NCBI RefSeq assembly: GCF_900129025.1
Contig: NZ_FQUM01000006.1
Span: 186,001-250,000 of the forward strand
Length of the DNA stretch: 64,000 bases
Direction of reading: 5' to 3'
Source of the DNA: Mariniphaga anaerophila
GTDB taxonomy: Bacteria > Bacteroidota > Bacteroidia > Bacteroidales > Prolixibacteraceae
Of the stretch, positions 16,856 through 58,133 are shown in pieces. The notes beneath the pieces are model-generated. The model was not told where the DNA came from and ran no database searches. It worked only from the letters and a program-made list of their open reading frames with translations. Each line of letters starts with the position of its first letter. The stretch's first letter is position 1. A program made the position numbers and the translations under genes.

Positions 16856-16946
16856 AAATTTATTGCGAAAACCTTGCTGTGTGTGGTTTTCTCTAACAGA
16901 TTAATAATATTAACAGCGAATTTCCGAAAATTCTAAAACAGTAACA

Positions 16947-18218: not shown

Positions 18219-18254
18219 TTCGCTAAGGATGATTATAATTTAGAATAAAGAAAA

Positions 18255-39272: not shown

Positions 39273-40469
39273 TTAGTTTTTCGCTGATAGTCTTAAAAGC
39301 GCTTCAATGTAGTAATAGTCTGCATAGTTTAACGGCACGTCAATTTCATTACCATGTGGTATGCTTCCAACACTATGCTTCAATAAAAAATTTCCGTTTT
39401 CACCCGGATTGGCACTATATTCTTCGGACGCCAACGATTTTAAAATATGCTTGGCGTTATCCAGATACTTCCCATTTGTATATGCACTTAGTTCTATCAT
39501 GGCCGACGCCATAATTGCTGCGGCTGACGCATCTCTTTCAGCATCGGGTATCCTCGGCGCATCAAAATCCCAGTAAGGAACTCCGTCTTCCGGATAGTTC
39601 GGATGATTCAAAATGAAATCTGCAATTTTCTTAGCAAAATCAAGATACTTTTGGTCTTTTGTATATCGGTAACACATGGTATAACCATAAAGTCCCCATG
39701 CCTGTCCACGAGCCCAGGCGCTCTCATCTGCATATCCCTGAGCGGTTTCCTTGCTTCTTGTTTCTCCGGTTTCGGGGTCATAATCTACCACATGATAAGA
39801 ACTACCATCTGGTCTGAAATGATTTTTCATAGTTATGTTGGCATGAGCAATAGCTATCTCTTTATACTTTTCATTCCCTGTATATTGAGATACTTCGAAT
39901 AACATTTCAAGATTCATCAAATTGTCTACGATTACCGGGAACTTCCAACCTCTTTTACTTTGCCAGTTATCTACACAATCCCAGCTCTGAATACAGCCAA
40001 CTGATTCATTAAAACGCGTACTTAACGATTCAGCAGCATCAATAAGAACTTGTTTGTTCGTTTCATCTCCGGTTACTTTATAGGCTTTTCCAAAAGAGTT
40101 ATTAAAGATAAATCCCAAGTCGTGGTCGTTAGTCAAGTTTTTATGATGCCTGAATAATTCTTGTGCAGCAACTGCTCCTTTCTTCCATTGTTCGTTTTTT
40201 GTGTAGTCATATAACATCCAACAAGTTCCGGGCCAGAAACCTTCTGTCCAGTCGTACCCTTTTCCTATCCAGCGTATGCTTCCATCTTCGGAAATAGAAC
40301 GGGGTATCTTATTGTTTTCAAGGGCACTTGTTAAAAGCGGCTTCAATTGGTGTTCAATTCGGTCAAAACTATCGGTACCTAAAGACGCAACTGCCTTTTC
40401 TGTAAAGACCTGGCTCCACACTATCAACCCGATGGCAACAATACCAACTGCTGCTAAAATCTTCTTCAT
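39273..40469 (-). CDS. GH88-family unsaturated glucuronyl hydrolase
   Basis: 398 aa with an N-terminal signal/anchor helix (residues 1-27). GH88 alpha/alpha-toroid: Trp-rich entry (GYDWTEGFWPGTCW, 71-84), HDLGF with catalytic Asp117, and VDNLMN with Asp182, aligning with the paired aspartates known for the Bacillus enzyme. It removes the 4,5-unsaturated uronic acid left at the non-reducing end by polysaccharide lyases, by hydration of the double bond. Last gene of the PUL2 operon and the logical next step after the two lyases encoded just upstream. Which uronate is released is not decidable. Confidence 0.92.
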   Translation of the reverse strand: MKKILAAVGIVAIGLIVWSQVFTEKAVASLGTDSFDRIEHQLKPLLTSALENNKIPRSISEDGSIRWIGKGYDWTEGFWPGTCWMLYDYTKNEQWKKGAVAAQELFRHHKNLTNDHDLGFIFNNSFGKAYKVTGDETNKQVLIDAAESLSTRFNESVGCIQSWDCVDNWQSKRGWKFPVIVDNLMNLEMLFEVSQYTGNEKYKEIAIAHANITMKNHFRPDGSSYHVVDYDPETGETRSKETAQGYADESAWARGQAWGLYGYTMCYRYTKDQKYLDFAKKIADFILNHPNYPEDGVPYWDFDAPRIPDAERDASAAAIMASAMIELSAYTNGKYLDNAKHILKSLASEEYSANPGENGNFLLKHSVGSIPHGNEIDVPLNYADYYYIEALLRLSAKN

Positions 40470-40477: not shown

Positions 40478-43300
40478 TTATTTTTTGATTATTTTCTTAC
40501 TTACTCTTCTGGTTCCATTTTCAATACAACAAACATAGATTCCCGGGGAGAACCCACTTAGATTTAATCTCACCTGTTTTTCTCCGTTTGTTTTTATATG
40601 TTTGATGTACAAACACCTTCCATGTATATCTAATATTTTAATGCGAGTTTCAGAATCTGAATTCAACTTTACATTAACTACGTCTGCAAACGGATTAGGC
40701 CAAATACTGATTGATTGTGAACCAGCCGTTTTGTTCTCGTCCAGCAAAGTACCAGTCAGGGTATTTGTGTCAATTACTTTTAATCGAAAACCATGTATCC
40801 GAAAACTACCGGATGAACTATTGGAGAATACTGAAGCGAGATCTTGATCTAGCTGCCCACCGTTTAAAAATATGTTTAAGTCTTCCACATTGATATACCC
40901 TCCTGACAACTCAACTTCAGTTCCGGTTCCCGGGGCGCCAAAGGTTTTGGTTAACGAAGTATTATTTCGATTGACAACGACACCTGTTTCTAATCCTCCT
41001 ACATACTTTACGCCGACTTCTGCCAACAATACTTTAACCGAAGGCGGAACATAAGTCAGGTCAAGCCCTAACCGAAACCCTTCATTGGGGTCTATTCCAT
41101 TGGTTCCTCCCCTTACACCCAGTATACCATCATTAGCCCTGTCAATACCTGCCTGCGACAGAATATCTCCGTAGCTGTCTCCGGCACTAGTGTTAGTTGT
41201 TCCCATGGCGGCATATCTAAACAGAAACTGTTTGCCCATTATGTCGTCAATATCACTATTACCATATACATTCCACCCGTAGCGACTCGCAAAACCGCCA
41301 ATGTAAGCATCTCCTGAAGTGTTAATGCCCAACGGAGATTCGTCGTAATAAAGAGTGTTTCCTTCCAGGCCGGTGTTCGGATCTGGTAAATCCAGGTAGA
41401 TATAATTTGTTGTAACAACAGGTGGTGTCTGTGTGTCTTCTTTCAATGTAACAGTAAAAGTAGCAGTTGAATTTGCTGATAAAACAGCATCAAAACCTAC
41501 CATGGAAGTACCGGAATTTGAAGTTTCATATGAATTACCCGGATCCGTTGAACGGCTGGCAGTAAGTATAAAGGGAGTGGCTGACGTAAATTTCAGTAAC
41601 ATTCTTTTGCCTCCTTGCGCTAAGCGTATTGTTGAAGGATTAACAATTTCGGCTCGTGCAGGAGTCACCATGTTCCAATACAAGTCAACCGAACCGCTGC
41701 CTGTTGTAATTTCATCTACAACTTTAAGGAAGGTTTCATTTTCAATGGACACCTCGCGAGTTGCGCGTCTCACTTCACTGTCCAGATTGAGTGTGTTGGT
41801 CAAATCTATTTTCGCACCAAGTTTTGCAGATGTTTGATAGTATTCTTCAAACCAGGCATTACCATTTACATTGTGCCTCTGGTTATTAATTGAAAGGGTA
41901 TTATGGTTTTTATTGCCAAGACGAAAAACCCCCCACCGCTCCGAATTTTGTGACATATTCCAAAAGTCGACTCCGGCATTCTCTACTGCGGCGTAACTTT
42001 GAAGCCCAAAATCCATTGCCCACCTGTACCTGTCAGAATCATAAACAAACGATCCTGCGTCCATGTGAGCGTGACTTGTTGACGCTGAGCCTCCTTTTAT
42101 TCCAAGGTATTTTTCGTTAGCACCTTCCCATCCGGTACGTACAATTACAACAGGGGTTGTTCCTCTGCCTATCCAGATTTTCTCGGTAGGAGCAGTCATC
42201 TTATCCAAAGCAATTCCTTTTCCAAAAATCAGGGCTATTGGAAGAAGCCTGTCTTCGGCAAACGGCTTTAAATAAGCATTCATTCTCAGCAATCTTTTTT
42301 CTCCGAAAAGGAGCGATGGATTGTTACTTTTCTTTGCAAACCAAAACATAGCCGGATTAGGACTTTGCAAACTACTACAGTCTGAATAGTTATTGCGAAG
42401 CTGCGTTGGCCCACTCATGTACATCATGTATTTGGCCGATTCCATGAATCCGGAATATTGAGACAATCCATAATCTGTTCCCAATGCGCTTTCTAGTGCA
42501 GCTAACATCATCACCTGAAAACTTGTTCCGTACCTCCAGTACATTGCCCCTTCAATATAATTGCCATCAGGGCCATATTCGCTTAATGGAAGTGACATCG
42601 ATTGCAGAGCCTGTTCGATTATTGCAACTGAAGCTGATTCTTCATGTTCAAATATCGCCAACGCCCCGTATACCAATCCGGCATTACACACCTGATTCCA
42701 GTTATTGGTTGCATTTAAGAACCACTGCCCGGAAGATGTATCAAAAGCTTTTGTAACAATTGCTTTTCGCACGTTCCGTTTTGTAGCCTCCTGCAAATTA
42801 TCGTATAACCAGTCGTAGCCAATAGATACAGCCATACACATTTCTCCAACATCGAGGTAGTGAGATGGATTCCAGTCGGCAAATGCGCAAACTGTATTGA
42901 TTTCGCTTTCTGCTTTATTCAGATATTGAGAATTGCCAGTCAGACGGTAGCTATACGAGAGATAAAAAATACGACGCAATGCCTCTCGCGATACTGCCAA
43001 AAGCCTTTTCCCTGCTTTTTCATACTTCAAACCATCCAGTACCAACATACCATCACTCTGTGTAATAATAAAATCGTGAAGCTGTTGCATGCGTGCAGAT
43101 TGAGCAATTGCTTGCTGAAGATCCAGCAAGTCAGAATTACTCATTAACAAACGCGGATGGGCTGAAATGTCAGCAAAGAGTGAATTGTTTTCTGAGACTT
43201 TGCCGGCTGAGACTGCTGCAATAGCATTGTTTTGTGCCGAAGTCACCAAACTTAACAACACAAACATTACCCGAATCAGTATTCTCGCGAGATTTTTCAT
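40478..43300 (-). CDS. heparinase II/III-type lyase with novel module and T9SS sorting domain
   Basis: 940 aa. Signal peptide (1-22, VTSAQ). Lyase region about 40-620: alpha/alpha-toroid entry HPRLLMSNSDLLDL, DWNPSHYLDVGEM (142-154), NNWNQVCNAG (199-208), GAMYWRYGTSFQ (251-262), then the Hepar_II_III beta part with SHAHMDAGSFVYD (409-421). Asn199/Asn200, Tyr258 and His412 are the likely catalytic set by analogy with heparinases II and III. Residues about 631-845 are the shared module (see findings), and 862-940 a type A T9SS sorting domain (SISIWPNPF to SPGIYVCCIENG). Polysaccharide lyase family uncertain. The ATG is 38 bp after the partner lyase stop. Confidence 0.9.
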   Translation of the reverse strand: MKNLARILIRVMFVLLSLVTSAQNNAIAAVSAGKVSENNSLFADISAHPRLLMSNSDLLDLQQAIAQSARMQQLHDFIITQSDGMLVLDGLKYEKAGKRLLAVSREALRRIFYLSYSYRLTGNSQYLNKAESEINTVCAFADWNPSHYLDVGEMCMAVSIGYDWLYDNLQEATKRNVRKAIVTKAFDTSSGQWFLNATNNWNQVCNAGLVYGALAIFEHEESASVAIIEQALQSMSLPLSEYGPDGNYIEGAMYWRYGTSFQVMMLAALESALGTDYGLSQYSGFMESAKYMMYMSGPTQLRNNYSDCSSLQSPNPAMFWFAKKSNNPSLLFGEKRLLRMNAYLKPFAEDRLLPIALIFGKGIALDKMTAPTEKIWIGRGTTPVVIVRTGWEGANEKYLGIKGGSASTSHAHMDAGSFVYDSDRYRWAMDFGLQSYAAVENAGVDFWNMSQNSERWGVFRLGNKNHNTLSINNQRHNVNGNAWFEEYYQTSAKLGAKIDLTNTLNLDSEVRRATREVSIENETFLKVVDEITTGSGSVDLYWNMVTPARAEIVNPSTIRLAQGGKRMLLKFTSATPFILTASRSTDPGNSYETSNSGTSMVGFDAVLSANSTATFTVTLKEDTQTPPVVTTNYIYLDLPDPNTGLEGNTLYYDESPLGINTSGDAYIGGFASRYGWNVYGNSDIDDIMGKQFLFRYAAMGTTNTSAGDSYGDILSQAGIDRANDGILGVRGGTNGIDPNEGFRLGLDLTYVPPSVKVLLAEVGVKYVGGLETGVVVNRNNTSLTKTFGAPGTGTEVELSGGYINVEDLNIFLNGGQLDQDLASVFSNSSSGSFRIHGFRLKVIDTNTLTGTLLDENKTAGSQSISIWPNPFADVVNVKLNSDSETRIKILDIHGRCLYIKHIKTNGEKQVRLNLSGFSPGIYVCCIENGTRRVSKKIIKK

Positions 43301-43337
43301 GGAGAAAATTTTAATGCCAATGAGTTTATTGAAGATA

Positions 43338-45884
43338 TCAATTCTCAGTTACCCTGAATTCAAATGCAGCAATTCTGTAAGAACCCCCACCCGTGCTAAA
43401 TACCGATGCAATTTCGTTGTATTTCTTTCCTCCTTTAACTACAATGTTTAAATCAGAAATATCAGTAAACTCTTTCTCTGAATTAGCTGTTACTTTAACA
43501 AATGCAGCATTGCTTTTATCTCCGCCACTTAAGCTCTTCATCCTGCCCGCTTCCTGACGGTTAACAATTATACACGATTCTGTTCTGTCAAAAAAGGTGA
43601 GTTGAATCTTGGTTAGTTCAAATGTAACTGATGGATCTATTTCACTTAGATCCAATCCGAATATGTAGCCCTCATTATTCTCTATTCCATTGTTTTCACC
43701 ACCTCTGATTCCAAGTTGCCCGTTGGCTGCCCGGTCAATTCCTGCATCCACAAGACCAGAGTCTTCAATACGTTTTGCGCTTATAATAAAAGAGAAGGAT
43801 TTGTCGACAGCTGATGGAATTGAGACCATACCGTACGGAGTCCAATCGGGCTTTTCCTTGGCAAAAACATAGCCGTCGCCATCGATGCCAAATGGAGAAA
43901 CATCCATAAAAAAATTGTCGCCCTCTGAGGCTGTGCTCGGATCGGGTGCATCCAAAACAATTGTATTTTTCTTTAGCTTAATGTCTGACGGCCCTTCGGT
44001 GAGTGTGACCGTAAATTTGGCTTTTTCTCCGGCAGGTACTTCTGCATCAAACCCCACCATTACTGTCCCAATATTTTTGTGGTTATAGTCTTCGTACTTT
44101 CTATTGGTAAAATCGCATTTAACGGTAGAAGGATTTTCAGACTCCCGAATTGCTATTTTGAAAGATGTTTTTGATTGAACTTTCAAAAACATCGTCTTCC
44201 CTTTTTGCGAAAGACGGATTGTATTTTTATTGACCTTTTCAGCCTTTGATGGCGTTACCATGTTCCACCTTATTTTTACCGCTTCTTCATTCGCTTCAAT
44301 TATATCTTCAACTTTCAGGTAAGAATCTTTTACAATAGTAACTTTTCTGGTAGCGTTTTTTACTTCATTGTTTAAATTCAGCACATCCGTTAAATCCACT
44401 TTTGCACCTAGTTCGTCTCCATCATCGTATGTTTCAACTATTTTTGCCCGGCCTTCAATATTATGTTTCTGCCCATTGATGGAAATTGTATTATGATTTA
44501 AATTGTTGTACCTAAACACGTCCCAACGCTGCGAGTTTTGTGTCATGCTCCACAAATCGACACCTTCGCTTTCCAGCGTACCATAACTTTGCAGGCCAAG
44601 GTCCATAGCCCATCGGTTTCGTCCCACATCGTATACAAAAGTCCCCTGGTCCATATGTGAATGCCCGTCAGAAGCACTTCCTCCTTTAATTCCCATGTAT
44701 TTTCCCTTGGTTCCCTCCCAGTTGGTTCTTACAATAGTAACAGGGGTTATTCCATGCCCGGTAAAAGTTTTAACATTGGGTTTCGGAATGTTTTCAAGGT
44801 TTATATTCCTCCCGAAAACAATGGCATTGGGCAAAATCCGTTCTATATCGGAAGATACCTTCTTTGTGTAACCACCATCTCTAATCATGGCTAATTCCTG
44901 ATAGACAAGTGACGGATTATTCAATTTATCAGCAAACCAAAAAATGGAAGACCTTGCCGTTTGCTCTCGTCCGCAGTCGTAATAGTTGAAGTATTCTCCC
45001 GACGGACCGCTTGCAAACACAATATATTCAGCTGTTCTCATAAACCCAGGAGCCTGAGACAAACCATTATCAGACCCTAATGCGCTTTCCAACGCAGCGA
45101 TTAACATCACCTGAAAAGAAGTTCCATAATTCCAGTAGCCTGGACCTTCGGGATAGTTTCCATCCGGAGCAAAAACTTCTAACGGAAGACGATTGGACAC
45201 CAGGGCTCTTTCGATAATAGCGATACTCTGTTCGGGTTCATCTTCCATAATAGCCAGGGCACCAAATACCAACCCGGCGTTGCACACCGAATTCCAGTTG
45301 CTATGTTTATTCAAAAACCAACTGTATTTTTCAATATATGAAGGTTTAAAGGCTTTCTCAACAATCGCTTCGCGAACATTTTTCTTGGTTTCTTCCTTTA
45401 ACCCATCGAACAACCAGTCGTAAGCAATTGCAACCGCCATCGTCATTTCTCCAATATCCAGAAAGTGTGAAGGATTCCAGCTTTCAAAGTCAGCAATAGT
45501 ATTCAGCTCGAGCTCTGCTCTTTCGAGGTATTTAGTTTCTCCGGTAATACGGTAGCTGTACGAAAGGTAGTAGAGGCGGGTAAGCGCAATGCGCGAAACC
45601 CACAATAAACGTTTGCCTCGCTTCTCGAAATGAACAGGCTTCTGGGATAAAATCACATCGCTCTGTTCAATAATGTAATCGTTAATTTTTTTAAACTCCG
45701 GGGTTGATTTCACAACCGTTTTTACGGTTTGTTCTCCACTACGATTCAGCAGTAAACGAGGATGATCGGCTATCTCTGAATAATTGTAGGAATACTCTTC
45801 CTGACCTTTGCTTTTTATAGTAAATGCTAAAAGCAAAGCCAAACAAATTAGTATACTTCGTTGATTTATGCGATAAACTTTCAT
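43338..45884 (-). CDS. heparinase II/III-type lyase with novel C-terminal module, no T9SS tail
   Basis: 848 aa from the ATG at 45884 (MKVYRINQRS); the frame from 45923 adds 13 unlikely residues. Signal peptide to about residue 27. Paralogue of the adjacent 940-residue lyase throughout the catalytic part: HPRLLLNRSGE, SWNPSHFLDIGEM, HSNWNSVCNAG, GPGYWNYGTSFQ, GHSHMDQGTFVYD. The shared module occupies about 639-848 and ends the protein, so unlike its neighbour it has no sorting domain and is probably periplasmic. This suggests stepwise cleavage outside, then inside, the outer membrane. A hairpin lies in the leader upstream. Confidence 0.9.
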   Translation of the reverse strand: MKVYRINQRSILICLALLLAFTIKSKGQEEYSYNYSEIADHPRLLLNRSGEQTVKTVVKSTPEFKKINDYIIEQSDVILSQKPVHFEKRGKRLLWVSRIALTRLYYLSYSYRITGETKYLERAELELNTIADFESWNPSHFLDIGEMTMAVAIAYDWLFDGLKEETKKNVREAIVEKAFKPSYIEKYSWFLNKHSNWNSVCNAGLVFGALAIMEDEPEQSIAIIERALVSNRLPLEVFAPDGNYPEGPGYWNYGTSFQVMLIAALESALGSDNGLSQAPGFMRTAEYIVFASGPSGEYFNYYDCGREQTARSSIFWFADKLNNPSLVYQELAMIRDGGYTKKVSSDIERILPNAIVFGRNINLENIPKPNVKTFTGHGITPVTIVRTNWEGTKGKYMGIKGGSASDGHSHMDQGTFVYDVGRNRWAMDLGLQSYGTLESEGVDLWSMTQNSQRWDVFRYNNLNHNTISINGQKHNIEGRAKIVETYDDGDELGAKVDLTDVLNLNNEVKNATRKVTIVKDSYLKVEDIIEANEEAVKIRWNMVTPSKAEKVNKNTIRLSQKGKTMFLKVQSKTSFKIAIRESENPSTVKCDFTNRKYEDYNHKNIGTVMVGFDAEVPAGEKAKFTVTLTEGPSDIKLKKNTIVLDAPDPSTASEGDNFFMDVSPFGIDGDGYVFAKEKPDWTPYGMVSIPSAVDKSFSFIISAKRIEDSGLVDAGIDRAANGQLGIRGGENNGIENNEGYIFGLDLSEIDPSVTFELTKIQLTFFDRTESCIIVNRQEAGRMKSLSGGDKSNAAFVKVTANSEKEFTDISDLNIVVKGGKKYNEIASVFSTGGGSYRIAAFEFRVTEN

Positions 45885-45923
45885 ATTAGTAGTAAAATTT
45901 AAATGGATCATCCTTATTAGCAA

Positions 45924-45956
45924 ATTGCTACTGCCGTTATAAGCAGCAGTAGCAAT
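45924..45956 (-). promoter_or_regulatory. hairpin in PUL2 operon upstream of the lyase gene
   Basis: ATTGCTACTGC (45924-45934) pairs perfectly with GCAGTAGCAAT (45946-45956), 11-nt loop, no T-run. Lies between the small exported protein and the 848-residue lyase. Confidence 0.6.
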
Positions 45957-46010
45957 ATCTATCTGTCAAAACGCTAGGAAAACATAAATTCAATAAACAA
46001 TATGTTACTA

Positions 46011-46985
46011 TTACTTTTTAACAACCTTTTTAGTAATTGTAGTGGTACCATTATTTATCTTGCAGAAATATATGCCTGATGGCAAATCGCTCGCGTTGAG
46101 CGTCAAACGGGATCCTGCTGTTTTATATTCCTTTTTTACCAACTGACCGTTTATGTTATAAAGTTCTGCGGATAAGCTATTTTTACCTTCTATTGTTAGA
46201 ACACTATTAAAAGGGTTCGGGTAAATAGTAAATTCATTTAATCCCATATCGTTAATGCCCGTAGTTCGATTATCGATCACTTCCAGTCTGATACCCAGAA
46301 TTCTAAAATTACCAATACCTCCGCTGTTATATGCCATCACCAGATGAGGGGTTGAGGTTCCCCCCTTAACCGTGAGGTCGAAAGAAGATATATCTACCGT
46401 GCCATCACCATTGGGAAGTTTTACTTCTCCATCATCATTTGCGTCACTTGCGGTTATTGTATTTTCCTTGTTCAACAAACTGGTTACAGTTGCAATCTCT
46501 CCACCGCCCATGTACTGAAATCTTATTCCTGTTAACCGAACGCTGACAGTACTGGGGATATCAGCGAGGTCTAGTCCAAAATAAAAACCTTCCATTTCAT
46601 CGATACCATTACCTGCACCGCCGCGTACGCCTAATTGTCCTGTGCCTGCACGATCGATTCCTCGCTGTTCAATCATCTCGGCAAAAGAAGTTCCGTCTAG
46701 GTTAGTTACTTCAAAAGCCCCAAAGTCGATGTTGAAGGTAGTATTGAGCGCATTGGGCAGTGTTACAGTCCCGGTTACAGTCCAATCATCATAAGCATCA
46801 TCAGTACTGTTGGTTACGACTCCTTCGCCATCAATGCTTATCGGCGATTTGTCACTATAAAACGTATTGCCTTCGGAGCCGGTACCTGCAGCTTTTAGAG
46901 TGATTACATTGTCCTGAGCATTAAGAGCCATACATGCACTAGTTGCAAATACTAATGCCAAAAATCTAGAAGTAAAATTTTTCAT
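46011..46985 (-). CDS. small exported protein: novel module plus T9SS sorting domain
   Basis: 324 aa. Signal peptide 1-24 (ALNAQD). Residues 25-239 are the same module found at the C-termini of both lyases in this operon: GSEGNTFYSDKSPI, GIDRAGTGQLGVRGG (109-123), GNGIDEMEGFYFGLDL, and FRILGIRLEVID at the end. Residues 249-324 are a T9SS type A sorting domain (FTIYPNPFNSVL, LPSGIYFCKINNG). So it is the module exported alone to the cell surface, plausibly a carbohydrate-binding or lyase-partner protein. No catalytic motif is visible. Family unrecognised. Confidence 0.8.
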   Translation of the reverse strand: MKNFTSRFLALVFATSACMALNAQDNVITLKAAGTGSEGNTFYSDKSPISIDGEGVVTNSTDDAYDDWTVTGTVTLPNALNTTFNIDFGAFEVTNLDGTSFAEMIEQRGIDRAGTGQLGVRGGAGNGIDEMEGFYFGLDLADIPSTVSVRLTGIRFQYMGGGEIATVTSLLNKENTITASDANDDGEVKLPNGDGTVDISSFDLTVKGGTSTPHLVMAYNSGGIGNFRILGIRLEVIDNRTTGINDMGLNEFTIYPNPFNSVLTIEGKNSLSAELYNINGQLVKKEYKTAGSRLTLNASDLPSGIYFCKINNGTTTITKKVVKK

Positions 46986-47200: not shown

Positions 47201-48925
47201 TTACCATCCTGTACGTTGGTCTAGCTGTTGGTTTATTTGAACCTCCTGCAGCGGGTATGGTAATAACAGGTGTTTACTTCTGTTAAAACTATTGCCTGCT
47301 GTAAGAAATGTTTGATGGTATTGGTTATTACTTACATAGCTGGGATCTGTTCTGATGATATTATTCGTTTCTTTCAGTTTGTCTTCCAGAAGATCCCATC
47401 TGATTAAATCCTGTTTTCTCAAGCCTTCGAAGCATAATTCTCTCAAGCGCTCATCTACTATTTCATTAAAAAAATCGTCATGGGCAGTGCTGCCAAGATA
47501 GGGTTCTAATCCGGCACGCTCTCTTACTTTATTGAGGCACTCTACTGCGTCAGAAGCTGCACTTTGGCTTCCGAATCGTCCACCAATAGAAGCCTCTGCA
47601 TACATTAATAAAATGTCGGAGTATCGTAATATCGGAAAATTGATGCTGGTATAGTTTGCGTCAGTGGCCGAGCCCGGAGTATTGTTAAGAATAACATATT
47701 CAGCCCCAGGGATGCTTCCTGCTGCTTTAAGAGCATCCATGTCTACCGGCTCCCATCTGCGAAATTTTCCGGGAGCATACTCCTGATGAAGTGGCATATC
47801 GAAAATATATCCCATAATGAACCCTTGCGCAGAAGTAGAATATTTATTTCGGTAACCTGCAATATTCCATTCTCTACGCTTATCTTCAGCTGAATATTTA
47901 TAATAAAGTGGAAGCGCAGCATTTATTTTACAAAATCCTCTGGGAATATCTAAGGTACCAACAAACTCTACCCCATTTATATTCCCCAGGCGTCCACTCA
48001 CATGTATTCCTATATCTTCCAGATTACCGAAAGATATTTCAAAGAGTGATTCTTTTAAATCGTAATAATCCTGCAGATAAGACATAAAATGGTTTCTGTA
48101 ACTATCAGAATCGACAGATGCAGGCGTGAGATCATGCCATCCGTCTGTTATTACAATATTGCATTGTTGTTTTGCCTGTTCAAAATATTGTTGATTATTT
48201 TCGAAATAGCAACTCGCATCATCGGCCTCTAAATAAGGCTGATACCCCCCCATGCGAAGATATAATCTTGCCAACAAGCCATGGGCTGCCATCTTATTAG
48301 GCTCTCCGGGCACATATGAAGCATCCTTGGAATGATAAAGATGTTCTGCTGCAAATAAAAGATCGGTTTCTACCTGCTCATAAACCTTTTTTACAGGAGA
48401 CGGAGCAATATTATTATCTTCCTGAGAATAGCTAGGCGTCAAGCGGAGGGGAACCGGGCCGAACCAGTTAGCCAGATTGAAATAGCAGAAACCTCTATAG
48501 AACCGGGCTTTTGCTAACAAACGGTTATACTCGGCAGTGCTGAACATTGAAGGCTCCAGGTTAACTTCAAAAAGATTTACCAATTGAATACAAGTATAAA
48601 ATTTCAACCAGGCATTCTTTATTTCATCATTAGATGATGTGTGTTCATATTTTGACGCCCCCCAGGTGTTATTTCCGTCGTTGGTATAACTTTCATCGGT
48701 GCCTCCTTCCATTAACACATTAAAATTCCATCCATAAAGGTCGTCGTGTGCCAACACTCCATAGATGCCTGACAGAGCCATGTATGCTTCGGCCTCGTTT
48801 GCATAAAAATCTTCTGCTTTCCAGTTGGAGGAAGGTTTAACATCCAAAAATTTTTCCTGACAACTATTGCTTGTTATAAGCAACAGAAGTGATATAGCAG
48901 CGATAATAATATTATTGTTTTTCAT
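47201..48925 (-). CDS. SusD/RagB-family outer-membrane lipoprotein (PUL2)
   Basis: 574 aa. The signal peptide ends in the lipobox ITSNSCQEKFLD (Cys near residue 22). SusD fold with the family's C-terminal LREL-type block (VDERLRELCFEGLRKQDLIRWD, shortened as ELCFEGLRKQDLIRWD). Binds the polysaccharide fragments at the cell surface above the SusC barrel encoded just upstream (39-bp gap). Larger than the PUL1 SusD (532 aa), and the two sequences are not close, consistent with different ligands. Confidence 0.95.
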   Translation of the reverse strand: MKNNNIIIAAISLLLLITSNSCQEKFLDVKPSSNWKAEDFYANEAEAYMALSGIYGVLAHDDLYGWNFNVLMEGGTDESYTNDGNNTWGASKYEHTSSNDEIKNAWLKFYTCIQLVNLFEVNLEPSMFSTAEYNRLLAKARFYRGFCYFNLANWFGPVPLRLTPSYSQEDNNIAPSPVKKVYEQVETDLLFAAEHLYHSKDASYVPGEPNKMAAHGLLARLYLRMGGYQPYLEADDASCYFENNQQYFEQAKQQCNIVITDGWHDLTPASVDSDSYRNHFMSYLQDYYDLKESLFEISFGNLEDIGIHVSGRLGNINGVEFVGTLDIPRGFCKINAALPLYYKYSAEDKRREWNIAGYRNKYSTSAQGFIMGYIFDMPLHQEYAPGKFRRWEPVDMDALKAAGSIPGAEYVILNNTPGSATDANYTSINFPILRYSDILLMYAEASIGGRFGSQSAASDAVECLNKVRERAGLEPYLGSTAHDDFFNEIVDERLRELCFEGLRKQDLIRWDLLEDKLKETNNIIRTDPSYVSNNQYHQTFLTAGNSFNRSKHLLLPYPLQEVQINQQLDQRTGW

Positions 48926-48963: not shown

Positions 48964-51900
48964 TTAGAAAACGATATCAATGCCACCTGTTATAGCTATG
49001 CTTTGCGGATATGCAGAGTAATCCAGTCCGGGAGTTAAAGCGCCATATCTTCCAACCGATACGTCAGGGTTATATCCTTTGTACTTTGTCCATGTATAAA
49101 GATTCTGAGCTGAAACAGAAAGTCTGCATCTATCAACATTGAACTTCTTTAATACCTTTCTTGATAAATTATACCCCAAAACCACTGTTTTCAGTTTCAG
49201 GTAAGAGCCGTCATCTATGAAACGATCATCAAGTTTATACCCGTATGGAGTAGTAAGGTTAACACCATTATAACGTATTCCGGAAACATCTGTATCTGTA
49301 TTGGTGGGAGTCCAGATGTTTGCTAATTCAGACAGGCCATTTCTTGTGTTCTTATAAAAACCACCGAACTCAGCCTTGTTTCCATTAAGTATATCAAAAT
49401 CGTAAGCCCATTGAAACAATACTTGTAAATCAAATCCTTTATAACTTATGTTATTGGTGAATCCGCCAAAATGTTTGGGGTGTGGGTTTCCGATAATCAC
49501 GCGGTCTTTTTCATCGATAACGCCATCGCCTGCATCTGCAATACCGTCTCCGTTGGTATCAACGGTCAGCTGATCTTTGAATTTCGCCATGCCTGGCTGC
49601 ATTTGAGAACGGTATGTTGGCACCCCATCTTTTAATTGATAGCCGCTACCACTAGTCACAATAAAGTCTTCTAACTGATATAAACCATCAAATTCTAACC
49701 CGTACATCATTCCCACAGTGTGTCCCACTCTGGTTACGTACTGATACTCCGATTGCATAAACTGAGTATCCCACCTGGGGTCAATAAGAATTTCCTGCTG
49801 ACCACTGTTTAATTTAACTGTTTTGGTTCTGTTGAACGATATATTGAAATCTGTTGACCATTTGAATTTTGATCTTTTTATAATGGTATTGTTCAATGAT
49901 ATTTCGATCCCTTTATTTTCTACTTCGCCCACGTTTTGCTGCACCCTGTTAAAGCCTGAGCTGGGAGCCATTTCCGCATCCAGCAATAAATCCTTTGTAC
50001 GCTTATGATAGAGGTCTACAGTTCCATTCACCAACTGATCAAAGAAACCAAAATCAACTCCCAGGTTTGTTTGCGCTGTGGTTTCCCATCTTAAATCAGG
50101 AACAGCCATATTGCGTTGATAAGCTCCGGGCGAATAATCCTGATTTGGCCCCAAAACATATCCGCTAGTTGTTCCAACGGCCAGTAGATTATATGCATCA
50201 AAATCTCCTATCCTGTTATTACCTGTTAACCCGTAACCTGCGCGAATTTTTAAATTAGAGATGACATCAACCGACTTTAAAAATGCTTCTTCTTTAATTC
50301 TCCATGCAGCAGAGAACGAAGGGAAATACCCCCAACGATTTGCCTTTTGGAATTTAGAAGAACCATCAGTCCTCAGGTTTAATGTTAATAAGTAGCGTTC
50401 GTTGTAATTGTAATTAACACGACCAAAATAAGATAGCAAAGTACTCCCTGACTTTCCGGATATGGCTATTGTAGAACCAGTTGCAATCCCGATGTTATCA
50501 ATTCCAAAAACATCTGTTGGTAAGTTTGTATTTTCTAAAGATGAAATTTTGAAAGTTCGGTGCTGTGCCTCAACACCAATTAATGCCCCAAAAGAACTTT
50601 TCCCAATTTTATCTTTGTACCTCAAAGTATTCGATGTTGCTAATGTTGTATATCGCCGGTTAGCAATATTGCCATGTATCCCTTTGTCAGTCCTTGAAGC
50701 TTGCTGTGTGTCAGCCCGATAAAAAATACTCTCTTCCCGTATGTTTCTCCAATAGCTGCCTTTCACATCCAAAGTAAATTTTTCCCAGAAACTATAGTTT
50801 AAAGCTAAGTATCCGCCAATTACATCATCAGCTCTTTTGCGGTCTGTGTTATTAAGCGTTTTTACCGGATTATATAAATAAGGATCCTGATCGATAGCAT
50901 ATTCTTCATCATCTCCGCTCCAGTTAATCGGATCCACCGGTCTGAAAGTTACTGCATCGCGAATAACGCTAGAGGCAGTATTTCCTGACACTTGCAATCC
51001 CGATCTAATGTAATGGTCATAACTAATCTGCCCGGTAAATTGCAGATTATCGGCTATCTTCTGATTGAATTTCAACCGGTTATTAAACTTTTCAAAACCG
51101 GTAGTAATTAATGTCCCGTCTTGTTTTAAGTAGCTTCCACTATAATATATTGAGCTGTTCTGGCTACCTCCTCCAATAGAAAAGTTGTAATCCTGAACTA
51201 CTGCAGCACGGAATATTTCGTCCTGCCAATTGGTTCCTTTAACATTTTCATAGTTTTTCGGGTCCAGCCAGTTGGTTTCGAATATCCTAATATACTCTCC
51301 CGGGGAATAATTATCATTGGCGTAGGCTATATTTTTTTGATATTTTACATATTCGTAAGGAGACATCACTTCCATTCTGTTAGGTATGTATTGTACACCT
51401 AGCGAGCTGTGCATTTTTACTTCAACACTACCATCTGAACGCCCACCATGGGTAGTAATTACAATAACACCATTTGCTCCTCGTGCTCCATAAATGGCGG
51501 TTGCCGATGCATCTTTCAGAATGTCGAAATTTTTAATATCTCTCGTGCTAATGCTCGCCGGGTCAAAATCTTCCATAGGAAATCCATCCACAACATATAA
51601 AGGAGAATTATCTCCGGTTATTGAATTTCCCCCACGAATTACAATGTTAAGCCCTTCGCCCGGGGTTCCATCCGTTGACGTAACCTGCACTCCGGACACA
51701 CGACCTGCCAGAGCCTGGTCGAAGTTAGTTGTTGCAGTTTTTGCAATATCATCGGTATTCACTTTTGCAACAGCGCCTGTTAAATCTCTTTTCCTTACAA
51801 CATCATATCCAACTGCTACTACATCCTCAAGCATAATTTCTGATGTTTTAAGAACAACATCTATTGAGCTCTGATTGCCTACCTTGATTTCTACGTTCTC

Positions 51901-52128
51901 GAACCCGATAAAACTAAATTGTAAGATATCTGATGATTTAATATTGTTGAGCTTATAGCTTCCCTCAACATCAGTTATAGTACCAACAGTACTGCCTTTA
52001 ATAACAATGTTGGTTCCGGGAATAGGTAACCCGTTGACATCTTTTACAACTCCGGTAACTGTTTTCTGTGCAAAAACAGCTGATGTGGATAATATAATTA
52101 GTATGAATACTATTTGAATTCGTTTCAT
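48964..52128 (-). CDS. SusC/RagA-type TonB-dependent transporter without STN domain (PUL2)
   Basis: 1054 aa. Signal peptide 1-20 (AVFAQ), carboxypeptidase-regulatory-like domain (about 22-95, VTGVVKDVNGLPIPGTNIV start), plug (about 105-225, with YVVDGFPMEDFDPASI and TAIYGARGANGVIV), then barrel ending in Phe. It lacks the STN domain present in the PUL1 SusC, matching control by a hybrid two-component regulator instead of sigma/FecR. Imports oligosaccharides with SusD. A hairpin lies just upstream of its ribosome binding region. Confidence 0.95.
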   Translation of the reverse strand: MKRIQIVFILIILSTSAVFAQKTVTGVVKDVNGLPIPGTNIVIKGSTVGTITDVEGSYKLNNIKSSDILQFSFIGFENVEIKVGNQSSIDVVLKTSEIMLEDVVAVGYDVVRKRDLTGAVAKVNTDDIAKTATTNFDQALAGRVSGVQVTSTDGTPGEGLNIVIRGGNSITGDNSPLYVVDGFPMEDFDPASISTRDIKNFDILKDASATAIYGARGANGVIVITTHGGRSDGSVEVKMHSSLGVQYIPNRMEVMSPYEYVKYQKNIAYANDNYSPGEYIRIFETNWLDPKNYENVKGTNWQDEIFRAAVVQDYNFSIGGGSQNSSIYYSGSYLKQDGTLITTGFEKFNNRLKFNQKIADNLQFTGQISYDHYIRSGLQVSGNTASSVIRDAVTFRPVDPINWSGDDEEYAIDQDPYLYNPVKTLNNTDRKRADDVIGGYLALNYSFWEKFTLDVKGSYWRNIREESIFYRADTQQASRTDKGIHGNIANRRYTTLATSNTLRYKDKIGKSSFGALIGVEAQHRTFKISSLENTNLPTDVFGIDNIGIATGSTIAISGKSGSTLLSYFGRVNYNYNERYLLTLNLRTDGSSKFQKANRWGYFPSFSAAWRIKEEAFLKSVDVISNLKIRAGYGLTGNNRIGDFDAYNLLAVGTTSGYVLGPNQDYSPGAYQRNMAVPDLRWETTAQTNLGVDFGFFDQLVNGTVDLYHKRTKDLLLDAEMAPSSGFNRVQQNVGEVENKGIEISLNNTIIKRSKFKWSTDFNISFNRTKTVKLNSGQQEILIDPRWDTQFMQSEYQYVTRVGHTVGMMYGLEFDGLYQLEDFIVTSGSGYQLKDGVPTYRSQMQPGMAKFKDQLTVDTNGDGIADAGDGVIDEKDRVIIGNPHPKHFGGFTNNISYKGFDLQVLFQWAYDFDILNGNKAEFGGFYKNTRNGLSELANIWTPTNTDTDVSGIRYNGVNLTTPYGYKLDDRFIDDGSYLKLKTVVLGYNLSRKVLKKFNVDRCRLSVSAQNLYTWTKYKGYNPDVSVGRYGALTPGLDYSAYPQSIAITGGIDIVF

Positions 52129-52198: not shown

Positions 52199-53815
52199 TT
52201 AATCAGCTATTTCTGCTGCTCTGTAATAGAAATCAGATAAAAAGAAAACACCGCCTCTGCCAGGGATAGTTGAATTATTTAATAACTCACCCTCGAAATA
52301 AGAGGCTACCTTAAAGGCAACGGTAAAGGTTTTACAAGTTTTATATTCTGAAATGTTATAAGTACATTTTACCCATTTTCCATATACATTTCTTCCTGCA
52401 ACTTTTCTTCCTTCAGGGTCAGGCCCGGTATTATCACCCGGATATGGAGTGCCAATAAATGGCTCACCCCAGGGAGCTCCTGCAGGTTTTCCATTGCTGG
52501 AAACCCCCGCTCCAATCTGGCAAGCTATCTGCTCGTTAAGTTTCTTCCATGTTCCGTTTATCCAATTCCCATTCCCGTCCTGAATGTCTCCTCCTGTATA
52601 ATCGGTTGATATATATACTTCCAGATCATTCGGAGCCCTGCCATCTTCCATATATCTTAAAAAAGAAGCATTATAATAGTAATTAAAGGATAGATCGTAC
52701 CCATATTGAAAAGCTGACAGGTCTTGTGTACTGGTTACACACCACGACTGTGTTGGCTTCGTAACACCAGCACTATTGAATGTCTGCGTTTCCAAAACCG
52801 TTTGAGCGGTGTTTTTTTCCGGTCGTTGCGAGGGTGTTTCCAGGTATCTGCCATTGCTGTTATCAACCTCTCCCCAAATATCATCGCCATTACCGGGGAT
52901 GTCTACTTGCACCGAAAAACCATCTCCCCCGGAGGGTTTCGAGCCCGAAGTCTTTAATGTCGGGTAGAAAAAATTTATAGTATCTACCGGCATTTGTTCT
53001 GCCTGGTTGGTTACAATAGCGATTAAACTATTACTAAAGCTAACCAACTCTCCACTTATATTATTTACAACATTAATAACCGGGAACAAAGTGTCGTATC
53101 CTGAGTAAACATAATCAGGCGATAATGAAACGACTCCGGTTGAAGGGTTAATTACCAGTTCCTCTTTATTAGCTGCCAACTCAAAAGTTACATCTGCATT
53201 GGCAGAAGGCAGTAGAGGTACACTTGTTTTACTCTCTGTATTTCCATATACCAGGTTTTGATTTTTGGGAGAGTAAATGAGATAGCTGGCCAGCAAAGGC
53301 TCAATGTTTAAATGAAAAACATCATCAAAAGTTGTAGAGAAGACCTTTCCTTCATGTTGGGTAGTTGCCTTAACCGAAAAATAGTAATCACCGACGGTGA
53401 AGCTGTTACCATCTGCAATGGAAATAACGCCGTTGTTTGATGTATTTAATGCAGAAACAGACCGAAGAGTATCTCCATTTTCATCTACTTTATTGTTGTA
53501 TGAATTATCCAATCTCATAACAATAGTATCAAATTGGGCAATACTTACATATTGCATGTATGACTCATCGAGCAGTGTGCCATCATCTTTTCTTCCGGCC
53601 ACAATTTCGTACATGGGGGTTAATCCTCCGGTGTTAATCGAAGGAACTCCGGACGATATAGCTTTCCCTTCACGGGCATTTTTAATATCCATATACTTTA
53701 ACCCTGTTGGATTGCCAAATGAATCTAACGGCACATCATCCATAAATGTATTTTCTATACATGAATACAAAGCAAGGAGGGATATAAAGAGTAGTAACTT
53801 TAGAGTAGGTTTCAT
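52199..53815 (-). CDS. outer-membrane lipoprotein, candidate surface glycan-binding protein
   Basis: 538 aa. The signal peptide ends in the lipobox LLALYSCIEN (Cys about 19). The middle looks like Ig/cadherin-like beta repeats (for example NPSTGVVSLSPDYVYSGYD near 240-258), and the last 200 residues form a beta-rich domain with a DGRAPNDLEVYISTDYTGG segment and an ending on FFLSDFYY. I do not recognise a Pfam family. As the first gene of the operon, upstream of susC, and lipid-anchored, it is likely to bind the glycan at the cell surface in place of SusE/SusF. Unusual position: such proteins normally follow susD. Confidence 0.7.
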   Translation of the reverse strand: MKPTLKLLLFISLLALYSCIENTFMDDVPLDSFGNPTGLKYMDIKNAREGKAISSGVPSINTGGLTPMYEIVAGRKDDGTLLDESYMQYVSIAQFDTIVMRLDNSYNNKVDENGDTLRSVSALNTSNNGVISIADGNSFTVGDYYFSVKATTQHEGKVFSTTFDDVFHLNIEPLLASYLIYSPKNQNLVYGNTESKTSVPLLPSANADVTFELAANKEELVINPSTGVVSLSPDYVYSGYDTLFPVINVVNNISGELVSFSNSLIAIVTNQAEQMPVDTINFFYPTLKTSGSKPSGGDGFSVQVDIPGNGDDIWGEVDNSNGRYLETPSQRPEKNTAQTVLETQTFNSAGVTKPTQSWCVTSTQDLSAFQYGYDLSFNYYYNASFLRYMEDGRAPNDLEVYISTDYTGGDIQDGNGNWINGTWKKLNEQIACQIGAGVSSNGKPAGAPWGEPFIGTPYPGDNTGPDPEGRKVAGRNVYGKWVKCTYNISEYKTCKTFTVAFKVASYFEGELLNNSTIPGRGGVFFLSDFYYRAAEIAD

Positions 53816-54098: not shown

Positions 54099-57000
54099 AT
54101 GAAGTGGTTGCCACATATTGTATTTCTGTTTTTAAGTGCTGCTATTTACGCACAAAACATCTCTTTTCAACACTTGGGGATCAATGAAGGATTATCTCAA
54201 AACTCTGTTTCGTCAATTGTGCAAGACAGCCTGGGACGTTTGTGGATTGGTACGAGAGATGGGCTAAATATATTTGACGGCACAACTGTTGAAAGTTTGA
54301 GACCTATACGTGGCGACTCAACCTCATTATTGGGGCATTTTGTAACAGATATAGTTAAAGATGGGGCTTCCTTGTGGGTTGTCACAAAAAACGGACTGTC
54401 TCACCTCAATATAAAAACATTAAAATTCACGCAGTACCCAATAACTGATTGCGAAACTGTGCTCCCGTACCGGGGAGAAATTTTAGTTGGCACAAAAAGC
54501 GGGTTATACAAGTTAAATACGTGTACAAAACAATTAAGTCCGTATTCCCAAATATTGAATGGGAAGTTTAATTTACAGCATCTGTATACAGACCAATCCG
54601 GACTTTTATGGATAGGAACTGTTCAGGGCGCATACCTGTACTCTCCGCATCAAAATAAAGCCACCAGAGTTTTAGGCAAAAACACAAAATACTTATTTAG
54701 TGATTCACAAAAACGCACCTGGGCTGGCACTTATAACGACGGTATCTATTTACTTGATAACAAACAACAAATCATTAAACACTTCACCCATAAAAAAGAA
54801 GAACCTTCGTCAATTATAAACAATATAATTCGCGACATAAACGAAGACACTAATGGAAATATATGGGTAGGAACTCTCGAAGGGCTAAGCATTATCGACG
54901 GGGGTAACTACAGCGTCACTAACTACAGCCACAAAAACAACGACCCTTCATCTTTGTCACACAATAGTATTTTATGTATTCTCCGCGACAACCAGGGAAG
55001 TATGTGGCTGGGGACCTATTTTGGAGGGATAAACTACTACAACCCGAGCTTCGCTATATACAATAAGTACACAAGCAAATTAAACATAAATTCTGAGTCA
55101 AATATTGGATTTAACATCATCGGAGAAATGCTCGAAGACGACGATAACAACCTTTGGATTGCGTCGGAAGGCAACGGTGTTGATTGCTACAGCAGAGAGC
55201 ATAAAACATTCACTCACTACCCTTTGAGCATAAAACCGCTGGCACAAATACCCACAAATGTTAAAGCACTGACGTTTTTGGACAAGACTCATCTGATGAT
55301 AGGAACACACCTGGGTGGATTGATTGTTCTAAATACTAAAACCGGATCGTTTAAGACATACCTACCCGATAATGAAAACGAGTACTCCATTTCCGGAAAT
55401 ATCATTGAAGATATTATCCCTTTCGGAGATGTGTTTCTTTTAGGCACCAATAAAGGCGTTGAAACTTTTGACCCCAAAACGGAAAAATTCAGCCACCTGA
55501 TTATTGACGCTGCGACCAGCCAACCTTTTACCAAACGAATTACTTGCCTGTATGAAGACAGTTATGGTGTGCTATGGATCGGAACATTAGAACAGGGATT
55601 GTATGCCTACCACAAAGAAAAAAAGAAGCTAAAAGCCTACAAATCATCGTCTACCGATTTATCAACTATCAGCTCAAACAACATATCGTGCGTTTATGAA
55701 GATCACTATTTCAGATTATGGTTTGGAACGCATGGAGGAGGCCTTAATTTGTACAATAAAGAGCAGGATTCGTTTAGCGCTTTAAACGTGAGCAACTCAA
55801 ATATTCCCAGCGACTTTATTCAGGGAATTAAAAAGTCAAAGCAAGGAAACATCTGGGTTGCAACCACTAAAGGGCTTTCCATATTGGAAGTAGACAACCG
55901 CCATTTTATTAACTACTCAACACAAAATGGATTCCCTTTAGGTGAACTTAATCATAGAGCACTCTATTTAACAAACGACGGAGAGGTATTTGCCGGTGGC
56001 ATTAATGGGCTTGTCTCCTTTAAAGAAGAAGCACTACTCAAACAATCAAATCATTTCAATACAATTTTTTCCTCGCTCAAAGTAAACGGAGAAAGAATCT
56101 CGCCCAATGACAGTTCGGATATCTTAAAAGAAGATTTACCATATACAAAAAGTATCAGACTAAAATCAAGTCAAAACTCTTTTACAATACAATACTCTGC
56201 CTGTAACTACATAAGTACCAGTAAAAGTAATTACAGATATAAACTTGAAAATCTTCATGACAATTGGATTAATGCCGGAAACAACACAACCCTTTCTTTT
56301 TCAAAACTACCGCCGGGAGAATATAATTTAAGAGTACAATCGATTGATAATGATGAAACCACTATTATCGATGACGATAATCTGAAGATAATTGTAGAAC
56401 CCCCAATATATTTAACCTGGTATGCTTTTCTTCTATATATAAGTGTTTCTGCTGGATTAGCCTGGGGATTAAACAAATTGTACAGGGCACGGTTAAAAAT
56501 AACCAGCCAACTAAAATCTGAGCTGCAGGAAAAGGAACAAATAAAAAAAATGAATAAAGCGAAACTCAATTTTTTTACGAATATATCGCACGAGTTCAGA
56601 ACTCCTTTAACCTTGATAAACGGCACGTTGGAAGCCATTCAGGAAAACAAAAACACCTCTCCGCAAAACCTAGAACTTGTTAACAAGACCCTGATTAACA
56701 CGAAGCGCCTCAATAATTTAATTGATGAACTGCTTGATTTCAGAAAGTTGGAATACGGGAAAAGTGTTCTGAAAGTATCTCAGGTTGAGATTAACGGATT
56801 TCTCGAAGAAATATTCAAGGTATTTAAAGACAATGCTCAGTTCAGAAATATATCGTATCAACTGAATCCACTATCGAGCAACAGTTCTATATGGATAGAT
56901 TCCAGGCAGATGGAGAAGGTATTTTTCAATATCATATCCAACGCTTTTAAATTTGTAACCGACAAATCAGGCAAAATAAAAATAGAAGCAGTCGAACATA

Positions 57001-58133
57001 AAAAACACGTTGACATATTAGTTAGTGATAACGGAACTGGTATTTCTTCTGAAGAGATTGACAACATATTTGACCCTTATTTTCAGGGCAAATATTCCAA
57101 TCCTCAAAAAAACAGAATTGGAAGCGGAATTGGCTTAGCATTCTCGAAAAGCATTATTGACGAACACAAAGGTAGAATTTCAGTAACAAGCTTATTAGGA
57201 GAAGGAACAACAGTAAAAATAAGCATTCTAAAAGGCAATTCTCACTTTAGCGAGAATGTACTTGTGGAGAACCCCGAAAACATTGTTTTTAGTAAAACCG
57301 GAAATCAAATTTCTTCTATTCCGAAGCACAAAGCAAAATTAACTCAGGCACCAGAAAATGCACATACTATTCTTATTGTAGAGGACAATAAAGATGTTCA
57401 GGATCTTTTGTATTACATGTTCTGCCCTGATTATAAAATTATTACAGCCGACAATGGAAAAGAAGGTCTGGACATAGCCATCGAAAAACAACCTGACTTA
57501 ATTATTTCGGATGTAATGATGCCGGTGATGTCGGGGACAGAAATGTGTAGTATTTTAAAGCGAAACATTGACACTTCACACATACCCATCGTTTTGCTGA
57601 CAGCGAAAGCTGCTCCCAAATATCACATAAAAGGGTTAGAGACCGGAGCCGATGACTATATTTCTAAACCCTACAACGGAAAAATTCTGAAAACTCGTAT
57701 TAAAAGTATTATTCATAACAGAATGCTTATTCAGCAGAAGTACAAATTTGGTTCTCATTTAAAAATCAGCGAAGTAACATCCTCTGTAATCGACCAGAAA
57801 CTGCTAACCAAGGTTGAAAGCATTATTACAAACCATATTGATGACCCGGAATTTAATGTTCAGGATTTTGCCGAGGAAATGAACCTTAGCCGGTCAAAAC
57901 TCTACCAGAAAATCAAAGGGTTAACCGGACAAACTCCAAACGATCTAATTCTTTCTATGCGTTTAAAAAAAGCTGCGGAGCTGCTTACAGAGCCTGCTAA
58001 TGATTTTACTGTAGCTGACGTCGCCTATAAGGTTGGGTACACTGATCCTCGGTATTTTAGCAAAAGTTTCAAATCACATTTTGGCGTTTCTCCTACTAAA
58101 TACGGGAAAAAGAACAGTGTAATAGCAGTCTGA
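54099..58133 (+). CDS. hybrid two-component system regulator (HTCS)
   Basis: 1344 aa single-chain sensor-regulator. Signal peptide/first membrane part 1-19; periplasmic Reg_prop beta-propeller repeats (about 25-670, LWIGT-type motifs repeated) and Y_Y_Y domain (about 690-755); transmembrane helix about 770-790; HisKA with His831 in ISHEFRTPL; HATPase (about 935-1045); receiver with Asp1138 in IISDVMMPV; C-terminal AraC-type HTH (about 1250-1340). Binds an oligosaccharide in the periplasm and activates the adjacent susCD operon. Divergent from PUL2, 283 bp apart. Confidence 0.95.
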   Translation: MKWLPHIVFLFLSAAIYAQNISFQHLGINEGLSQNSVSSIVQDSLGRLWIGTRDGLNIFDGTTVESLRPIRGDSTSLLGHFVTDIVKDGASLWVVTKNGLSHLNIKTLKFTQYPITDCETVLPYRGEILVGTKSGLYKLNTCTKQLSPYSQILNGKFNLQHLYTDQSGLLWIGTVQGAYLYSPHQNKATRVLGKNTKYLFSDSQKRTWAGTYNDGIYLLDNKQQIIKHFTHKKEEPSSIINNIIRDINEDTNGNIWVGTLEGLSIIDGGNYSVTNYSHKNNDPSSLSHNSILCILRDNQGSMWLGTYFGGINYYNPSFAIYNKYTSKLNINSESNIGFNIIGEMLEDDDNNLWIASEGNGVDCYSREHKTFTHYPLSIKPLAQIPTNVKALTFLDKTHLMIGTHLGGLIVLNTKTGSFKTYLPDNENEYSISGNIIEDIIPFGDVFLLGTNKGVETFDPKTEKFSHLIIDAATSQPFTKRITCLYEDSYGVLWIGTLEQGLYAYHKEKKKLKAYKSSSTDLSTISSNNISCVYEDHYFRLWFGTHGGGLNLYNKEQDSFSALNVSNSNIPSDFIQGIKKSKQGNIWVATTKGLSILEVDNRHFINYSTQNGFPLGELNHRALYLTNDGEVFAGGINGLVSFKEEALLKQSNHFNTIFSSLKVNGERISPNDSSDILKEDLPYTKSIRLKSSQNSFTIQYSACNYISTSKSNYRYKLENLHDNWINAGNNTTLSFSKLPPGEYNLRVQSIDNDETTIIDDDNLKIIVEPPIYLTWYAFLLYISVSAGLAWGLNKLYRARLKITSQLKSELQEKEQIKKMNKAKLNFFTNISHEFRTPLTLINGTLEAIQENKNTSPQNLELVNKTLINTKRLNNLIDELLDFRKLEYGKSVLKVSQVEINGFLEEIFKVFKDNAQFRNISYQLNPLSSNSSIWIDSRQMEKVFFNIISNAFKFVTDKSGKIKIEAVEHKKHVDILVSDNGTGISSEEIDNIFDPYFQGKYSNPQKNRIGSGIGLAFSKSIIDEHKGRISVTSLLGEGTTVKISILKGNSHFSENVLVENPENIVFSKTGNQISSIPKHKAKLTQAPENAHTILIVEDNKDVQDLLYYMFCPDYKIITADNGKEGLDIAIEKQPDLIISDVMMPVMSGTEMCSILKRNIDTSHIPIVLLTAKAAPKYHIKGLETGADDYISKPYNGKILKTRIKSIIHNRMLIQQKYKFGSHLKISEVTSSVIDQKLLTKVESIITNHIDDPEFNVQDFAEEMNLSRSKLYQKIKGLTGQTPNDLILSMRLKKAAELLTEPANDFTVADVAYKVGYTDPRYFSKSFKSHFGVSPTKYGKKNSVIAV

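Follow-up and report, generated by a model that had tools for sequence, protein, structure and literature searches.

The DNA analysed here, a stretch of 64,000 nucleotides from Mariniphaga anaerophila (positions 186,001 to 250,000 of contig NZ_FQUM01000006.1; hereafter the window), contains a polysaccharide utilisation locus (PUL) in which three adjacent proteins share a module of about 215 residues. Two of these proteins, lyase A and lyase B, are lyases of family PL35; the third is a free-standing exported protein. The module represents a genuine domain family that has no name and, within the genomes sampled, a narrow distribution. It is an accessory domain, predicted to be all-beta and to fold by itself. 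Most likely, with a probability of about 0.6, it belongs to a new family akin to the carbohydrate-binding modules (CBMs), directed at glycosaminoglycans (GAGs; animal-tissue sugars such as chondroitin) or their oligosaccharides. Glycan binding is the most economical reading because no named domain credibly matches the module and every copy found is either part of a PL35 lyase or a neighbour of one, in a single type of glycan-utilisation locus. The computed support comprises the homology of the three copies, a predicted all-beta fold, the linkage to one locus type, three module lineages, the grouping of the free copies with N-terminal ones, a remnant of a lost copy and the absence of the module from sister loci.

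The first-pass annotation of this DNA had noticed one module in three neighbouring proteins, and its coordinates agree within 3 bases with those found here, all on the minus strand. The copies occupy residues 25-240 of the 324-residue free protein (46266..46913), residues 651-861 at the C-terminal end of lyase A (43341..43973) and residues 631-846 of lyase B (40763..41410), between the lyase domain and the tail for the type IX secretion system (T9SS). Identity between the window copies is 34-36%, and each of the three pairs aligns locally with a score that exceeds that of shuffled sequences by 36-44 standard deviations (500 shuffles each). By blastp, the free protein is 35% identical to lyase B over 315 residues (E 2e-42, a span that takes in the T9SS tail) and 32% identical to lyase A over 225 residues (E 9e-29). 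The motif described earlier is also confirmed: the three window copies share 45 invariant columns, and 17 are still invariant in 20 copies from 8 genomes, including GIDR, the two glycines of G-x-LG, the GI of NGI, EG, GG and one tryptophan. Module length in the 20 copies is 205-224 residues. No copies beyond the three were found in the same genome, even at E<=10.

How widespread is the module? The 20 copies reside in 15 proteins, and all belong to one kind of PUL: SusC, SusD, a protein in the position of a surface glycan-binding protein (SGBP) and PL35 were present in 9/9 loci read, which come from the 8 genomes, two of them adjacent in the genome G933. A pattern scan of genome contigs, which covers all phyla but misses divergent copies, gave two relatives, Pedobacter sp. 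BS3 (locus L004) and Sinomicrobium sp. N-1-3-6 (locus L005). Profile searches were confined to the phylum. With the profile of the three window copies, only the source genome matched among 395 genomes of the phylum and 295 of the order; its own family (140 genomes) added two chance matches, and three genomes of the same genus were negative. The Pedobacter family (301 genomes) gave five real matches, BS3 included, and one chance match, and the Sinomicrobium family (349 genomes) gave two, Sinomicrobium included. The sampling is partial, with a running count of 1,483 in which the source genome and the two named relatives are counted repeatedly.

Some weak matches were set aside. Those in G745 and G746, of the source genome's own family, are attributed to chance: the protein read at L007 is by eye a TonB-dependent outer-membrane barrel, and the weak match at L008 covers the same profile stretch. 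A match in G1027 (E 5.9e-4 over 57 positions, with three in-frame stops) was also dropped as chance. The PL35 family itself is common; searches with the lyase A domain at a threshold of E<=1e-50 detected it in 56/140 genomes of the own family and 49/301 of the Pedobacter family. The module is, as far as sampled, a rare and patchy addition to one PL35 lineage. Among 22 lyase domains compared, that of window lyase A is nearest to the Sinomicrobium domain (68%); because three genomes of the same genus lack the module, this suggests that the whole locus may have been transferred.

Lyase A (43338..45923, minus strand) is an 861-residue open reading frame when started from TTG, or an 848-residue protein when counted from an internal ATG. 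Its PL35 domain (about 43989-45785) matches 8khv_A at E 1.2e-151 and is followed by the module. Lyase B (40478..43300, minus strand; 940 residues) consists of a PL35 domain (about 41438-43168; 8khv_A, E 7e-157), the module and a T9SS type A tail (40487-40705; PF18962, 1.2e-14). The two are 48% identical to each other over 827 residues. Among solved structures, GAGase II (8khv) is the closest to both, at 41% identity; GAGase VII (8khw) matches with a lower score, and the PL35 chondroitinase 9o3q matches lyases A and B at E 2.7e-75 and 1e-66, respectively. The catalytic residues Asn192, Tyr246 and His401 and the manganese-site residues His403, Asp405, Asp421 and His457, numbered after PMC12088678, are kept in 5/5 aligned lyases, of which the window and L004 contribute two each and L005 one. 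As judged from sequence, lyases A and B are PL35 GAGase-type glycosaminoglycan lyases with intact catalytic residues.

The substrate site is less uniform. Asn191 is replaced by Ser in 3/5 of the aligned lyases, and the B lyases of L004 and L005 differ from GAGase II at further substrate-site positions. In these two proteins (L004:11277-14843 and L005:9929-13480), the changes relative to GAGase II are Asn191 to Ser, His136 to Tyr and Glu431 to Lys. The B-type lyases of Pedobacter BS3 and Sinomicrobium may, on these residues, differ from lyase A in substrate preference. PL35 lyases have an ultrabroad GAG spectrum, according to the available parts of PMC11262172 and PMC12088678, and the available part of PMC12269599 describes a Bacteroides caccae PUL with PL35 and GH88 that acts on chondroitin. 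Since the window lyases are of the PL35 GAGase type, the target of the locus is narrowed to glycosaminoglycans: it is likely a GAG, and the module family very probably belongs to a GAG utilisation system.

Does the module correspond to a known domain? The first-pass annotation knew no named domain with this pattern, and the searches agree. The three modules gave no credible match in Pfam or PHROGs, the whole window proteins left the module region without a credible match in Pfam or NCBIfam, and the three-row profile gave nothing credible against all PDB sequences. None of the 20 modules reached a curated cut-off; the best E-values, 0.05 in Pfam and 0.053 in NCBIfam, each came from one member. 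The lowest PHROG value (E 0.0059, a tail fiber protein) came from a single member of the 20 and is at chance level. A tblastn search of plasmids, in which one L004 module served as query, found none, and 0/17 pattern matches in IMG/VR were confirmed. A glycine-rich pattern of similar kind may occur in PEP-CTERM secreted proteins, a likeness on which no conclusion here depends. AlphaFold2 modelled the free copy (9 aligned copies) with a mean predicted local distance difference test score (pLDDT) of 90.3 and a predicted template modelling score (pTM) of 0.89, as 15 strands and one short helix; the lyase A copy (20 copies) reached a pLDDT of 92.1 and a pTM of 0.89, with 17 strands. The module is thus confidently predicted to be a discrete, all-beta domain that folds on its own. 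Its strand content and weak fold matches would fit a beta-sandwich architecture.

It is highly unlikely that the module is itself an enzyme, for example a second lyase or an esterase domain. The idea draws on the conserved charged residues, which could form an active site: Asp80, Arg81, Glu101 and Arg200 are invariant and Arg90 and Asp98 nearly invariant in the 20 copies (Trp44, below, and Asp80, Arg81, Arg90, Glu101 and Arg200 follow the numbering of the lyase A module). However, the domain is small and all-beta, and searches of Pfam, NCBIfam and PDB sequences gave no enzyme that matches it credibly; it co-occurs with complete PL35 lyases, and it is optional.

The position of the module varies in an orderly way. 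Seven lyase A proteins (842-873 residues) carry it at the C-terminus. Outside the window, five lyase B proteins (1181-1218 residues) have a module at each end, and both of those scanned (L004, L029) have a T9SS tail. Thus 5/6 B lyases have two modules; the window lyase B lacks the N-terminal one, and the free protein is present. In Pedobacter BS3, a free protein of 418 residues and a two-module lyase B occur together. In G933 (L031:3664-7223, L032:1885-4122 and 10848-12290) and G1068 (L033:6308-9871), module-bearing lyase A was seen with no module-bearing lyase B. The two module loci of G933 are neighbours and also hold additional Hepar_II_III proteins as well as an M20 peptidase and a zinc carboxypeptidase, a content that may hint at proteoglycan as food.

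This range of positions bears on the idea that the module is a structural or spacer domain, which would stabilise the lyase or distance it from the T9SS anchor and bind no sugar. We regard this as unlikely, though it has points in its favour: the module of lyase B sits exactly between enzyme and T9SS tail, the conserved core is mainly glycine and charged residues with few aromatics, and most modules are acidic. Yet a spacer offers no obvious reason for a separate exported protein, whether of 324 residues in the window or 418 in L004. The module is also found at the N-terminus of 5/6 B lyases and at the C-terminal end of lyase A with nothing after it, and its 17 columns remain invariant across clades that are specific to position.

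Where did the free protein come from? A tree of the 20 modules has three groups: the C-terminal modules of lyase A (support 100/99), the C-terminal modules of lyase B (97/96), and the N-terminal modules of lyase B together with both free copies (97/95). The window free protein is on a long branch (1.15) and its exact place within the last group is unsure, but it belongs with the N-terminal module lineage of lyase B. Window lyase B retains a remnant of the start of such a module, 24 residues long (residues 23-46; 43163..43234, minus strand). It is identical to the free copy at 10/24 positions, a score reached by 0/5000 shuffles; against six other N-terminal or free copies, p was 0.0004-0.0096, and in a control with seven lyase A segments it was 0.19-0.99. 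In the simplest account, whose order and direction are inferred, an earlier lyase B with a module at its N-terminus would have shed everything except the opening residues of that module, and the free protein continues the same module lineage.

Loss of the module is also suggested for lyase A. Five orthologues at 62-65% identity lack it (G993, G866, G1119, G996 and G1120). In the lyase-domain tree they fall in two places, where several branches have support of 80-95, and this distribution suggests two losses. In G1120, lyase B alone carries the module; the other four have loci with SGBP, SusC and SusD in genomes without a module match. PL35 proteins of 906-918 residues from the source genome's own family have a different C-terminal domain in place of the module (three read). 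This domain, at L080:854-3574, L081:1805-4540 and L082:842-3598, is also unnamed, at about 200 residues and 73-74% identity to the first of the three; Pfam named it in neither of the two scanned, and a T9SS tail appeared only in L081, below the cut-off. Because four loci keep the same set of SGBP, SusC, SusD and PL35 lyase A without it, the module is dispensable, as expected of an accessory binding domain. By analogy, a domain at the end of an enzyme that can be swapped or lost would be what binding modules look like.

The same loci bear on protein-protein docking, whereby the module would assemble the free protein and both lyases into a single complex at the surface, together with SusCD or the SGBP, either in a cohesin-like manner or by self-association. 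One domain on several partners in one locus, free copies without an enzyme and position-specific clades are what docking might produce. By contrast, Pfam scans of six locus proteins (SusC and the regulator left out) revealed no dockerin-like partner, and the module-less loci retain SusC, SusD, SGBP and lyase A. Kinship between the module and the SGBP-position family was rejected, with an hhalign probability of 0.2%. Docking is therefore considered improbable.

If glycan binding is the function, how would it serve the locus? The module would probably bind sugar with a GAG as its ligand, and fused to a PL35 lyase it would hold the polymer near the catalytic groove, a proximity effect. A free copy exported by the T9SS would let the cell bind more glycan at its surface, next to SusCD and the surface lipoprotein.

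A number of results weigh against this function. Foldseek searches of the PDB at E<=0.001 gave 0/695 matches for the model of the free copy and 0/853 for that of the lyase A copy, and one model searched against BFVD gave 0/1204. CBM15, CBM6, CBM16 and SGBP-B are in the top 50 for both models, none of them significantly, and the CBM rows reach query TM-scores of just 0.17-0.36; the phage T7 structure 8e4g and the peptidoglycan esterase 8gkd also appear in both lists. In favour of binding, CBMs, SGBPs and a lectin make up, by title, 19/50 of the best rows for the free copy and 11/50 for the lyase A copy, none significant. Because many such chains are in the PDB, this share of the modelled fold's matches is a hint rather than a match. 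Aromatic residues are scarce: Trp44 is the sole aromatic invariant in 20/20 copies, and Phe60 and Phe192, both on strands, are kept in 19/20. Otherwise the conserved core consists mainly of glycine plus Asp, Arg and Glu, which fits a structural or metal site as well as a sugar site. The isoelectric point is 4.1-5.8 in 19/20 copies and 8.0 in one, so that an acidic module is awkward for an anionic ligand. Finally, the earlier placement of the module at the surface stands for lyase B and the free protein, which have T9SS tails, and fails for lyase A: its chain ends directly after the module, and no T9SS tail was detected by Pfam or NCBIfam scan. The module of lyase A may thus be exposed to the periplasm, where there is less need to capture polymer.

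The remaining parts of the locus are as follows. The free protein (46011..46985, minus strand) has a signal peptide, recognised by eye, ahead of the module and a T9SS type A tail at 46020-46226 (PF18962, 1.6e-17; TIGR04183, 7e-17). On the same strand lie a GH88 unsaturated glucuronyl hydrolase, the partner of the lyases (39273..40469; PF07470, 1.3e-12; 3wiw_A, 8e-100), SusD (47201..48925; PF07980, 1.9e-35), a SusC-like TonB-dependent transporter (48964..52128), named by position and sequence and with a homologue in all module loci read, and a putative surface glycan-binding lipoprotein in the SGBP position (52199..53815), with no Pfam match above the cut-off and a Cys19 invariant in 9/9 homologues. 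With 67% mean column identity over the 9 homologues, the last represents another unnamed family. On the plus strand, a regulator of the hybrid two-component system type (54099..58133) was named by sequence reading and has homologues in five other module loci. Among related loci, two contain sulfatases, that of Sinomicrobium (L005 and L035) and that of G1419 (L034), and SASA-type esterases are found in L030 and L034.

Elsewhere in the window, a second locus (6774-21653) encodes FecR, a SusC-like receptor, SusD, two Gfo/Idh/MocA oxidoreductases and two 3-keto-disaccharide hydrolase proteins, one of which, at 1132 residues, combines HEAT repeats with the hydrolase domain. This composition points to 3-keto-glycoside metabolism.

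The observations on the module can be drawn together in a tentative picture, possible rather than probable: a GAG-recognising all-beta family that lacks an aromatic platform and instead uses its invariant Asp/Arg/Glu network, possibly with a metal. Two such domains would clamp one lyase from either side, one would sit on the second lyase, and a detached surface copy, split from lyase B and leaving a fossil behind, would gather host-type glycans. If the module is a binding domain, it would offer a way to target or improve PL35 lyases, a possible GAG reagent and the founding member of a new CBM family. Through the remnant, the locus also illustrates the passage of a binding domain between an enzyme and a separate surface protein. 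In the open PMC literature no binding data for the module were found, nor any earlier description of it in those texts as far as they are available.

How does the module compare with known systems? It resembles CBM15 (1gny), CBM6 (1uy0), CBM16 (2zey), CBM22 (4xup) and CBM35 (3zm8) in being all-beta and appended to carbohydrate-active enzymes, and these families are among the best Foldseek rows, none of them significant. Single chains of CBM6, CBM15 and CBM16, however, have 124-153 residues against 205-224 for the module, with no sequence match. Liu et al. reportedly described, in 2024, a novel CBM of chondroitinase ABC, a binding module on a GAG lyase as here. The three-row profile gave nothing credible against the whole PDB, a set that should include chains of CBM70. 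That module of a pneumococcal hyaluronate lyase provides another likeness, a binding module on a GAG lyase (PMC4175358, available part).

The PL35 GAGases (GAGase I-VIII; 8KHV, 8KHW; 9o3q) resemble lyases A and B in their enzyme domains, with the same catalytic and manganese-site residues. The characterised GAGases have 624-648 residues in two described parts, according to the available portion of PMC11262172, whereas each window lyase has the extra module of about 215 residues. The available portions of PMC11262172 and PMC12088678 describe no binding module for PL35 lyases, and the term 'carbohydrate-binding' is absent from the main text of these two papers and of PMC12269599. The SGBPs of Sus-type PULs are similar to the free protein as non-catalytic exported proteins beside SusCD, and the fold searches returned SGBP-B structures (7k44, 7kwb and 7kwc) among their weak matches. 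The locus already encodes a lipoprotein of its own at the SGBP position, and no relationship between this lipoprotein and the module was detected. Unlike SGBPs, the free module protein ends in a T9SS type A tail and is built from a domain that it has in common with the lyases.

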